A stretch of DNA of 64,000 bases, taken from contig JASHSJ010000030.1 in assembly GCA_030040895.1 (NCBI GenBank), positions 1 to 64,000 of the forward strand, given 5' to 3'. This document shows, one piece after another, positions 11,078 to 14,764 of the stretch. The notes beneath the pieces are model-generated. The model did no database searches and was not told the origin of the DNA. It saw only the letters and a list, made by a program, of their open reading frames with translations. The position numbers were made by a program, and so were the translations under genes. Source of the stretch: Microcaldota archaeon (GTDB taxonomy: Archaea; Micrarchaeota; Micrarchaeia; Micrarchaeales; Micrarchaeaceae). Positions within the stretch are counted from its first letter, which is position 1, and the number at the start of each line of letters is the position of its first letter.

Positions 11078-12988
11078 TTATTTGTAATCCTTTGTGCGGA
11101 TAAAAACAGTATCCTCAGTTATCTTATCGCCTCCTTCCCGTATTACGCTACTGAATGCCCCTACTCTGGAATTCAGGTGTTTCAGTTTTTGCTCTACTTG
11201 ATCTTCATCCATATAAGTAAAGAGCAGGTCCTTTGCCGCTATGCGCGCTACATCCGGTGCCTGCTTTAGGTATATCTTATTCTGGCATAGTCTCCTTATG
11301 CCTTGGTCAATGTCATTTATGTTGTGCGCCATCAGGATCAGTCCTATGCCTTGCTTTCTGAAGTCCTGTATCCGCAGTCTTATATCTTGGACTGCGGCAG
11401 AGTAGCTATCCTTGAAAAGAATTTGTGACTCTTCAATGCATATCAAAAGCTTCAATTTCGACTCTGCATCCATGGATAGGGAACTTGCTATTGAGTATAC
11501 CTGATTCAGGACTAGTGCGCTTAGATACGGCTTTGAACTATTGCTAACTAGCGACATGTCAAAAACCACGCCGTTCTTCACGGCCTCTGCCATATCAATG
11601 CCATCTGAAGCCGAATATTCTGGCACGGCTATTATTTTCCTTAAGTTCTCCAGGGCAGACCTTATATTCTCACCGTGCTTCGTGTATCTTACCGATCCTC
11701 TGGACTCCTTCGCATGAAATTCTATTATCGAGCGCTCTATCGCGTTATACGCATCGGCTGGGCTTGGAGGCTTGTCCGAATCATATACTTTCTTAAAGGC
11801 GTTGAGTATGCACTTTTCCATTGGCGACCTGTATGGGCCTGAGTTCGACGCCGATGCTATTAGCATTGAAAGGTCTTCTGCGAATTTCGATCGGCTTGCT
11901 GGCATGGGGCAATTGAAAAAATTTATAGGCGTAGCGCCGTCGCATAGTCTAACCAGCTTCAAGCCATGCGAACCTGCAAATTCGGCCCATTCACTCGTGG
12001 GGGATATTACTACTATCATCGGCTTGTCTTTCAACAACGCATCTATTATTGCCATGCACTCTTTTGTTTTGCCTGAGCCTGGAAGCCCAGATATTATGAA
12101 ACCGAGATTCAATACGCTGGGATCGATAAACACCGCCCTGTCAGTTTCAGATACTCCATCATCCAGGTAGGTTCCTACCTCTACCCCATGCACATATCCA
12201 GGAATGTGGGTCTTTGCAGAATAGCTCAGATTTATACCCCCATGTGGATTGAGCAACCTTGCCGCGAAATCCCTGCCAGCCACAACAGATCCAAATAGTT
12301 CTGGTGCATCAATTGGGAAGCGTTTTGCCGTTATCTCGCATTTTGACATTATTGCCACCCTGGCGTTAAGATAATCGAAGATTTTCGCTGTATCATCTCC
12401 TTCTATGGCAAACGCTATCTTGTAGCACATCCCGTTTCTGGCGATTGACCTATTTATCGAGTCCAAAATTGATTTCATTAGGAGAATATCGCTGGATTCA
12501 TCAAAATTTTCGGTATGGTAAGAGCCAAATGACTGTTTTCCAAGCATTCCAGAATTAAGCGAAAGCGTCTCCCCAGTCTTCTTGCTGGATAACGACCTTT
12601 CCATGCTGCTTCTTTCAGCACTTATCTTATCTCCCGAGACTGGATTGAATATAACCGATAACGACCCAGTATCGTTCACAAATGTGTTTTCAAGGAATGG
12701 TGTTTCCTCATCAGAGACCCTGTATCCGGTAGCTATGGTAAAACGGCGTTGTACTTTAAATGAATCTTCTATGCCCTCCATCTTGAATCCAGGGAGCGCC
12801 TTTTCAAGCTCGTTAATAACTTTATCTGGAGTAGCTGACGAAATTCCAAGCGCGCATGTGCCAGTATCAAAAAAATATGTTATAGAAAAACGCGCCTTGC
12901 CCAATGAATCCAGAATTATTTCTTTGTCTAGCCCTTTGTAAGGAATTTTTGTTATTCTGCTGAATAAAACAGGCTCCGAGTCCTTCAT
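11078..12988 (-). CDS. VirB4/HerA-like AAA+ ATPase (candidate T4SS/DNA-transfer motor)
   Basis: Walker A GLPGSGKTKE; Walker B-like LKLLICIEESQILF; RKQGIGLILMAHNINDID; INFFNCPMP region typical of VirB4/TraC/HerA ATPases. Confidence 0.75.
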   Translation of the reverse strand: MKDSEPVLFSRITKIPYKGLDKEIILDSLGKARFSITYFFDTGTCALGISSATPDKVINELEKALPGFKMEGIEDSFKVQRRFTIATGYRVSDEETPFLENTFVNDTGSLSVIFNPVSGDKISAERSSMERSLSSKKTGETLSLNSGMLGKQSFGSYHTENFDESSDILLMKSILDSINRSIARNGMCYKIAFAIEGDDTAKIFDYLNARVAIMSKCEITAKRFPIDAPELFGSVVAGRDFAARLLNPHGGINLSYSAKTHIPGYVHGVEVGTYLDDGVSETDRAVFIDPSVLNLGFIISGLPGSGKTKECMAIIDALLKDKPMIVVISPTSEWAEFAGSHGLKLVRLCDGATPINFFNCPMPASRSKFAEDLSMLIASASNSGPYRSPMEKCILNAFKKVYDSDKPPSPADAYNAIERSIIEFHAKESRGSVRYTKHGENIRSALENLRKIIAVPEYSASDGIDMAEAVKNGVVFDMSLVSNSSKPYLSALVLNQVYSIASSLSMDAESKLKLLICIEESQILFKDSYSAAVQDIRLRIQDFRKQGIGLILMAHNINDIDQGIRRLCQNKIYLKQAPDVARIAAKDLLFTYMDEDQVEQKLKHLNSRVGAFSSVIREGGDKITEDTVFIRTKDYK

Positions 12989-13269
12989 ATTAACACCGTC
13001 AACATGGCGGAGATCAGCAAAGACGCCGCTATTCTCATCTTCGTGGCCGAGTCAAGGCGCAGAGGCATTGGCCTTGAGGATATGAAAAGGGCTGCAACGA
13101 CGCTGGCTATAATCAAAAGCCTGGCCACAGACCACTGTGCAAAGTATACAACTGACAGGAACGTGTATATGATATATGAGAAAATGAGCATCGAGGAGAA
13201 AAGAAGCGCCAAAACCGTGAGTCTTTCTGTGAATGCGCCCTTGAGCTTGTAGGATATTATCATGCCCAT
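12985..13269 (-). CDS. Small polytopic membrane protein (94 aa; VirB3-sized), upstream of the VirB4-like ATPase
   Basis: Start moved to ATG 13269 (MGMIISYKLKGAF), which overlaps the upstream stop (TAATG). Stop overlaps the ATPase start (ATGA). About three hydrophobic segments. Confidence 0.6.
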   Translation of the reverse strand: MGMIISYKLKGAFTERLTVLALLFSSMLIFSYIIYTFLSVVYFAQWSVARLLIIASVVAALFISSRPMPLRLDSATKMRIAASLLISAMLTVLI

Positions 13270-13466
13270 TAACTGATCACCAAAATAACAAAACATATAG
13301 CACAAAGGATTGTGCCGCAACTAAGCATATTGTATCCAATGTGCTCAAAGCCAGATTCTGCTCTAACCTTTGATGCTACAAGTATGGCAGACCCTGCACT
13401 CAGTGAGAGCCCTGCCATCCACGATACAATGGCCAGAAGATACCTGTATATCTCAGCAAACATCAA
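13269..13466 (-). CDS. 65-aa two-TM protein, VirB2/CedA1 pilin-like topology
   Basis: Two hydrophobic helices (YLLAIVSWMAGLSLSAGSAILVA / IGYNMLSCGTILCAICFVILVIS) separated by a short charged loop SKVRAESGFEH; embedded in an overlapping operon. Confidence 0.6.
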   Translation of the reverse strand: MMFAEIYRYLLAIVSWMAGLSLSAGSAILVASKVRAESGFEHIGYNMLSCGTILCAICFVILVIS

Positions 13467-14100
13467 GCAAATCGACCATTCTGCATGTTTTTAGGTATAG
13501 TAGCATGGAGTTTCCGGAGTATGGGAGATAGGGCAGCTTTTCGAGCATGCGCCTTTCGCTCGCGCTACAGCTCGTGACGGATGCCCTTTCGTTTGTCCAT
13601 CTTGGAACCCCGCCAAGTTGGTTAATCAAATTTTGCGCAGAAATTAGGCCTTGCTGCCCGCTTCCTATTTCCCCTGTGCCAGTAAAAATGGCATTCTCAT
13701 ATAGCCGCATTGCCGAAATGGATGTCCTGAGGTTAGGGCCATTTAGCACTTGTGCAGCTTTATTGCTACAAGCAGTGAAACCGCCACATATGTTTCTGAT
13801 TTCTTCCTGCAGTCCAAATGGCAGGCCGTGTGCCTCTGGTATAAATTCCCGTATTTCTTCCGGTAGTAGGGGCAGCATTTTAACGATTTTCACCTTGTCC
13901 TTCCTTGATGCAGCATCTGCCAAAGTTGCCCTGATTAAATTCTCATTATAATTTACTATCCTAACTGATGATTTGCAATCAAGTCGGAGCTTTTTCTTGC
14001 CTGAGAACCACGCGGAGATAAACCTAAACCCCACAAATATGGCCAAGCCTAAGAATATGTAGGACATATTTCCAAATCCATAGTCATTCACGGCTGGCAC
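13453..14100 (-). CDS. Hypothetical protein with N-terminal TM anchor, T4SS-like operon
   Basis: MSYIFLGLAIFVGFRFISAWFSGKKK TM anchor then soluble domain; overlaps both neighbours. Confidence 0.6.
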   Translation of the reverse strand: MPAVNDYGFGNMSYIFLGLAIFVGFRFISAWFSGKKKLRLDCKSSVRIVNYNENLIRATLADAASRKDKVKIVKMLPLLPEEIREFIPEAHGLPFGLQEEIRNICGGFTACSNKAAQVLNGPNLRTSISAMRLYENAIFTGTGEIGSGQQGLISAQNLINQLGGVPRWTNERASVTSCSASERRMLEKLPYLPYSGNSMLLYLKTCRMVDLLDVC

Positions 14101-14764
14101 CCTTACCGTACATAAAAATAACTTTGCTTTTCAGTTCTTTCTCCACACCAATCTTGTCACACATATCAGAGATTCTCTGCGCTTCTATTTTGGATTCCGA
14201 CATTTTACCGGAGATTGTAGAAATAAGTTCTGTTAAAATAAGCTTGTCACTTAGAAGCGCAGCGTTCTTATTCTCGACAGAAAGAAAAAAATGTGATAAT
14301 GCCACGTTCACCCGCGACAGTGCATCTATTCTTGCGCACATTTCGTCGGTCATTGGGCTTAATTTTGATGACGCATATGAACTGGCCTCCTGCGCAGCCA
14401 CCAAAACTTCTGTTACCTTAGCAAAGAGGGCATCCGGCTCTATGCTATAGGAATCCCCTATATACCCTAAAACGGAAAGAAGCCTTATCATGAACCTTAT
14501 CTTTTCCAAGTTTCCATGCGAGTTTGCGTATTCCACAAGTATTCTGTCCAGATAGAAATGCATTCTTGCTTCTTCCTTCTCACCTTTGCCCTCCCGATGC
14601 AAAACAAGCACAACATCCATATAATTTTGGGTTGCAGTGGAAAGAGGAAGTCGTGATAATTTCTCGTGTATGCTTTTGATATCCTTCTTTGCAGTTGCGC
14701 TGATCCAAATCCTGGAGATAGGTACGTCACCTTGCTGGCTATTAGTCTTTAACACTAAATACAC
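14084..14764 (-). CDS. Hypothetical soluble alpha-helical protein, first gene of T4SS-like operon (GTG start)
   Basis: Helical-looking sequence; AT-rich promoter-like region immediately upstream; 17-nt overlap with next gene. Confidence 0.55.
   Translation of the reverse strand: MYLVLKTNSQQGDVPISRIWISATAKKDIKSIHEKLSRLPLSTATQNYMDVVLVLHREGKGEKEEARMHFYLDRILVEYANSHGNLEKIRFMIRLLSVLGYIGDSYSIEPDALFAKVTEVLVAAQEASSYASSKLSPMTDEMCARIDALSRVNVALSHFFLSVENKNAALLSDKLILTELISTISGKMSESKIEAQRISDMCDKIGVEKELKSKVIFMYGKGASRE

Follow-up and report, generated by a model that had tools for sequence, protein, structure and literature searches.

Five overlapping minus-strand genes of a Microcaldota archaeon are, judging from gene order in its relatives, the separated rear half of a nine-gene system derived from type IV secretion systems (T4SS). 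They lie at positions 11078-14764 of the window, the 64,000-nt stretch analysed here, which opens an 83-kb contig (JASHSJ010000030.1, assembly GCA_030040895.1); the source genome measures 0.76 Mb, is 92% complete and belongs to a tiny archaeon that is probably host-dependent. The system is real and conserved, a variant of known T4SS machinery, and we consider it likely that the five genes form the rear module of a chromosomal, relaxase-less apparatus for translocation across the envelope. A sequence-only reading of the window had proposed a stripped-down, five-gene DNA-transfer or pilus system of the Ced type. The open reading frames (ORFs), their positions and the overlaps between consecutive genes (17 nt, 14 nt, TAATG and ATGA) are all as that reading gave them, and its general idea of a T4SS/Ced-like apparatus is upheld. 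What was not borne out is the minimal system, since relatives carry nine genes and the block in the window is half of them. The five genes are as follows (aa, amino acids; TM, transmembrane segment), each with the evidence on which its description is based:

11078..12988, minus strand: predicted second VirB4-type (VirB4/HerA class) ATPase, 636 aa (Foldseek, hhalign, orthologs)
12985..13269, minus strand: membrane protein with three TMs, 94 aa (positional counterparts, codon-position bias)
13269..13466, minus strand: membrane protein with two TMs, 65 aa (positional counterparts, codon-position bias)
13453..14100, minus strand: 215-aa protein with one N-terminal TM (homologs beside the ATPase)
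14084..14764, minus strand: 226-aa soluble coiled-coil protein (homologs beside the ATPase and in a second cluster)

The block is flanked by ordinary chromosomal genes; a gene for aldehyde dehydrogenase begins about 40 bp past the stop codon of the ATPase.

The nine-gene set emerges from the synteny comparison that the sequence-only reading had called for. The survey covered 41 loci with an ortholog of the window ATPase; the block is conserved among them, and in 22 it directly follows four further genes on the same strand. In the window genome these four genes lie on another contig, C6, in unchanged order. The first encodes a pilin-like protein of about 130 aa, with three hydrophobic segments and a signal-peptide-like start, which matches the Pfam TrbC/T4SS_pilin families at E 1e-5 to 6e-4 (clearest cases 1e-5 to 6e-5), just below the curated cut-offs. 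The second product is VirB6-like (about 345 aa, 6-7 TMs) and is conserved in 84 of 119 relatives. The third, of about 250 aa, has two N-terminal TMs and a soluble part, and its gene stands directly before that of the fourth, an ATPase of 360-460 aa. By its sequence this ATPase, the first motor, is a VirB4: it exceeds the AAA_10, P-loop_TraG and TrwB cut-offs in relatives and the curated AAA_10 and P-loop_TraG cut-offs in the window genome (L082:8664-9770), it aligns with the TrsE/VirB4 of Gram-positive plasmids (hhalign 99.2%, E 1.9e-19), and 229 of its 261 best plasmid matches are on predicted conjugative plasmids. Within the loci VirB4 was assigned by position, an iterated VirB4 hidden Markov model having drifted to the window-type ATPase. 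A fusion of VirB4 with the N-terminal-like protein before it (VirB4N-like) was considered as proof that VirB4 had been split, and was set aside: almost all of the 267 genomes have the two as separate open frames, and the two long frames found contain an internal stop.

To judge by its model, the ATPase of the window is another motor of the VirB4 type. The Walker A (GLPGSGKT) and Walker B (ICIEES) motifs that marked it as an ATPase are indeed present, and G301, P303, G304, G306, K307 and E520 are invariant across 33 orthologs. Orthologs (E < 1e-70, 33-50% identity) occur in 78 of the 119 relatives, usually one per genome and confined to two families within one order; phylum-wide, 111 of 303 genomes carry the gene, namely the same two families and three genomes from a third. 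The AlphaFold2 model (predicted local distance difference test, pLDDT, 87.4) combines a RecA motor with an N-terminal domain that is alpha/beta according to its DSSP string. In a Foldseek search its top matches were R388 TrwK/VirB4 (E 1.7e-14), covering the whole protein with the N-terminal domain included, an outcome that speaks against grouping it with HerA repair ATPases, although HerA structures followed closely; a Thermoanaerobacter VirB4 gave template modelling scores of 0.63-0.66 by target length. Profile comparison likewise paired it with the CD1110 VirB4 (hhalign 94.9%, E 4.4e-8) and with the first motor (97.3%, E 1.8e-11), and the NCBIfam search returned VirB4 matches, all sub-threshold. 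A PHROGs search gave no informative match, no phage relative was found, and plasmid relatives were weak only. The protein does not have the C-terminal beta domain of about 100 aa carried by most orthologs (about 740 aa); the short form recurs in G010, a relative from the same genus, and an assembly error is therefore unlikely. Homology of the ATPase N-domain to the separate VirB4-N protein was entertained and rejected, as the comparison gave no match.

The two halves of the system have parted more than once. They are joined in 22 of the 41 loci, apart in 13 and undecidable from contig ends in 6; on the ATPase tree this amounts to five linkage changes, at least four of which are forced by well-supported branches. 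In several separations, those of the window and of G089 included, the junction of the first VirB4 with the 226-aa gene is precisely where the operon is broken; other loci have a rear module that is cut down as well, and in genus g28 nothing remains of it but the ATPase. There, at loci L063, L064 and L067, neither the 226/215-aa genes nor the small membrane genes adjoin the ATPase, and a VirB6-like gene lies elsewhere in the genome. Among the 119 relatives, 74 have both the ATPase and the VirB6-like gene of the nine-gene system (system A), 4 the ATPase only, 10 the VirB6 only and 31 neither (Fisher p = 1e-15); the corresponding counts for genomes at least 90% complete are 37, 1, 2 and 11 (p = 1.9e-8), both p-values being inflated by shared ancestry. 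Since the halves still co-occur despite repeated separation, functional linkage would be the simplest reading. Near the ATPase in 12 of the 41 loci (e.g. L031:4919-6172 and L049:4934-6208) there is also a gene that reads by sequence as an Nre-like DNA-repair gene, in several of the 12 immediately downstream of the ATPase and convergent to it.

The two small membrane proteins proved to be conserved beside the ATPase, as the sequence-only reading required, and not to match the roles it had supposed for them. A positional counterpart of the 65-aa protein, an ORF of 56-82 aa with two TMs, is found just upstream of the ATPase in 29 of the 41 loci; that of the 94-aa protein, with 2-3 TMs and 87-138 aa (one, clipped, has 60 aa), is found in 33. 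These counterparts were scored by position, size and topology, divergence being too fast for profile detection everywhere. Substitutions between close pairs fall on codon positions 1/2/3 in the numbers 13/8/32 and 35/14/54 for the two ORFs, and this bias to the third position shows both to be real genes. The 65-aa protein has two TMs and no evident signal peptide. The proposal that it is a VirB2-type pilin finds no support (hhalign 2.8%, E 0.016, against the system's VirB2-like family), and the pilin family is encoded in the other half. The 94-aa protein (this length counts from an inner ATG, and a start at an upstream TTG would give 111 aa) has three TMs and a conserved N-terminal (F/L/I)Y motif. 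It had been taken for VirB3; no hhalign match to TrsC/PrgI was obtained, and the position of VirB3 would be held by the 2-TM protein before the other VirB4.

The other two rear-module proteins are larger. The 226-aa protein consists of an N-terminal alpha/beta domain, a long coiled-coil helix and C-terminal helices, some relatives ending in a winged-helix-like manner. Its AlphaFold2 model (pLDDT 82.7) retrieved nothing reliable in a fold search (best E 0.055; ZipA/TBP-like folds at E 0.1-0.3). Homologs occur in 26 relative or window loci, and again in a second T4SS-like cluster of the genome, where one lies downstream of that cluster's VirB4 (L083:16572-17324; hhalign 94.1%, E 1.3e-7 over 208 columns); its recurrence next to a second VirB4 suggests a shared core component, not an accessory. 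The 215-aa protein, for which Pfam and NCBIfam gave no match, has an N-terminal TM followed by a mainly cytoplasmic domain. Its homologs adjoin the ATPase in 31 loci and range from 142 to 341 aa, some with an extra extracellular segment between two TMs.

The second cluster, on contig C2 of the window genome, is the larger of the two, with six VirB6-like proteins, two VirB4N-like proteins, one VirB4, the 226-aa homolog and five VirB2-like segments. The VirB6-like proteins are polytopic (378-503 aa) and encoded in tandem (L083:5172-12584); several VirB6-like matches per genome are common among relatives. The pilin segments, two-helix and VirB2-like, occur in five tandem genes (L174:1959-10083 and L083:2201-2608) and match the pilin family of the nine-gene system (hhalign 90.9%, E 1.1e-6). 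One stands alone (135 aa); the other four are embedded in proteins of 250, 479, 681 and 1284 aa with large extracellular regions, partly Ig-like in one, and their sequences make it possible that these are pilin-adhesin fusions. Of the phylum's 303 genomes, 267 encode VirB4N-like proteins, and a T4SS-like core would therefore be close to universal in it. One could envision that Micrarchaeota harbor two paralogous, chromosomally fixed T4SS-derived machines, one lean with two motors, the other larger with six VirB6-like proteins and pilin segments in surface proteins, which together would constitute a class of archaeal T4SS not described before, marked by paired motors and a conserved coiled-coil component, and would serve host-dependent archaea for exchange of DNA or exchange with a host; this broader proposal is tentative, and we hold it at just short of even confidence.

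As to how the apparatus might work, we infer its assembly, cargo and direction from its parts. In this scheme the pilin (VirB2-like), the channel (VirB6-like), the TM-anchored occupant of the VirB4-N/TrsD position and one VirB4-type motor would belong to the front module, to which the rear module would add a soluble coiled-coil part, an adaptor anchored in the membrane, the two small membrane proteins and the second motor. Both motors might dock on the VirB6-like channel beneath a VirB2-like filament, with ATP hydrolysis driving the cargo through the channel, and the second motor might replace the missing VirD4 coupling protein or pair with the first in the way proposed for CedB and CedD. Overall, transport of DNA or other molecules across the cell surface is the probable function. 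The sequence-only reading saw neither relaxase nor coupling protein, and the wider search agrees: relaxase PF03432 was matched in 0 of 120 genomes, with the positive control detected and other relaxase families outside the search; VirD4 (PF02534) had no match in the window genome and two marginal ones in 60 relatives, neither convincing, one of which (G026, contig C28) occupies the front-module VirB4 position; and ComEC (PF03772) was absent from the 60 relatives. For want of these three, Ced/Ted is the closest working model. By analogy with it DNA, imported or exchanged, is the likeliest of the cargoes considered, with the doubt still weighing slightly heavier than the case for it; molecules exchanged with the host cell come next. 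Both the ATPase and the VirB6 of the nine-gene system are missing in 11 of the 51 relatives at least 90% complete; the system thus appears dispensable, which is somewhat easier to reconcile with DNA exchange than with a host interface that every cell would need.

Several points weigh against a translocation apparatus built in this way. The pilin matches stay below threshold, as noted, and the VirB6-like protein has no sequence match in Pfam or the PDB. Assignment of the third front gene to TrsD/VirB4-N is by position and topology, the best hhalign match to TrsD being a weak one (13.9%) that comes from its second-cluster paralog. Equivalents of VirB8 and VirD4 were not identified in the system, HerA structures came a close second to TrwK/VirB4 in the Foldseek search (E 1.3e-13 vs 1.7e-14), and shared ancestry, again, inflates the statistics of co-occurrence.

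It is conceivable, if unlikely, that the machine serves host interaction and exchanges proteins or nutrients, not DNA, with a host archaeon. The chromosomal, relaxase-less T4SS of Patescibacteria, with its VirB2 arrays, TrsD and VirB4, is essential for epibiotic growth (PMC12102498), and the fusion of second-cluster pilin segments to large extracellular regions suggests attachment. However, the 11 near-complete genomes without ATPase and VirB6 argue that the system is not essential to the lifestyle, and no effector-like gene is consistently linked to it, the commonest flanking family (12 of 41 loci) being of a housekeeping type. A quite different interpretation would make the ATPase a HerA-type DNA-processing or defence enzyme and the small genes unrelated membrane proteins or a defence module. 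Weak DUF87/HerA_C Pfam matches, SIR2-HerA as the best PDB sequence match and a PADLOC mads_8 match (E 8e-12) all point that way; yet TrwK/VirB4 ranks first in the structure search at full length, the modelled N-domain is alpha/beta and not an all-beta HAS barrel, 22 loci have the ATPase next to the VirB2/VirB6/VirB4 set, with which it also co-occurs, and a distinct HerA-like ATPase is encoded on contig C13. Moreover, no partner such as NurA, Mre11/Rad50, SIR2 or a methylase was noticed in the 41 loci, whose neighbours were not systematically annotated. We regard this interpretation as highly improbable.

T4SS genes are usually mobile, and the split operon and the shortened C-terminus of the ATPase could reflect decay, as would be expected of a degraded or integrated conjugative element in place of a resident chromosomal machine. 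Such an origin seems scarcely credible given that PF03432 was unmatched in the 120 genomes, that genomes throughout one order carry a single copy, with rare exceptions, that two families resolve apart on the ATPase tree and that the chromosomal flanks are ordinary; the genes are intact, and the small ORFs of relatives show third-position bias.

Ced/Ted take up DNA through a VirB6/CedA channel by means of VirB4-like ATPases (PMC9905601, PMC11868833). Comparison with Ced (Sulfolobales: CedA, A1, A2, B, D and E) and Ted (Thermoproteales) was by gene content and topology only. Like the Micrarchaeota system they are archaeal and chromosomal and do without a relaxase; they share with it a VirB2/VirB6/VirB4-like set, small proteins of two TMs with no assigned role and components that sometimes lie at distant loci (PMC9905601, PMC11868833). 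Ced, moreover, has two VirB4-like ATPases in one import system, CedB and CedD (PMC11868833). Unlike them, the Micrarchaeota system belongs to a different archaeal group, a separate protein with TMs stands in the TrsD position beside its first motor, and its 226-aa coiled-coil and 215-aa anchored proteins are without a stated Ced counterpart. The T4SS of Patescibacteria (Candidate Phyla Radiation, CPR) is of the MPF_FATA class, with TrsD, PrgI/VirB3, VirB6 and VirB2 arrays; a remote likeness to the N-terminus of VirB4 has been described for TrsD (PMC12102498). Here the likeness extends to ultrasmall, host-dependent cells, a chromosomal location without relaxase, arrays of VirB2-like pilins and a VirB4-N-like protein beside VirB4 (PMC12102498). 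The Micrarchaeota system differs in being archaeal and divergent in sequence and in having another ATPase of the VirB4 type and a rear module of five genes; Patescibacteria have VirD4 homologs, for which the Micrarchaeota genomes searched offer no convincing counterpart.

Gram-positive plasmid T4SS (pGO1/Trs: CagC-TrsC-TrsD-TrsE/VirB4) contain the homologous VirB4 motor (hhalign 99.2%, as above). Their operons run pilin (CagC), 2-TM TrsC, TrsD, VirB4, and the front module would have the same order if its 250-aa protein corresponded to TrsC plus TrsD. In contrast to pGO1/Trs, neither a relaxase match nor a lytic transglycosylase was seen in the Micrarchaeota system, its VirB6-like channel comes directly after the pilin, and it has the extra rear module. 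Giant VirB4/TraG-domain surface proteins of nanohaloarchaea offer another parallel within the DPANN: their ATPases of the VirB4 family are likewise paired, and a part in host interaction has been proposed for them; there, however, the giant Ig-repeat protein itself carries the ATPase domain, whereas Micrarchaeota motors and extracellular domains are separate (PMC10266531). Full-text literature on Micrarchaeota or Micrarchaeum together with VirB4, T4SS or conjugation yielded incidental mentions only, subscription papers and preprints being outside the search, and the archaeal section of a 2025 T4SS review covers plasmids such as pNOB8 and pT33-3 and leaves DPANN unmentioned (PMC12857230).

A conserved, relaxase-less T4SS-like machine, mostly single-copy across an order of Micrarchaeota, offers named components for studying how DPANN archaea trade material with hosts or with their own kin. 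It would extend to this group the idea of domesticated conjugation machinery in archaea, as in Ced/Ted, and would parallel the T4SS that Patescibacteria need for host-dependent growth. Its two-motor design, with no convincing VirD4, bears on how a T4SS may function without a coupling protein.

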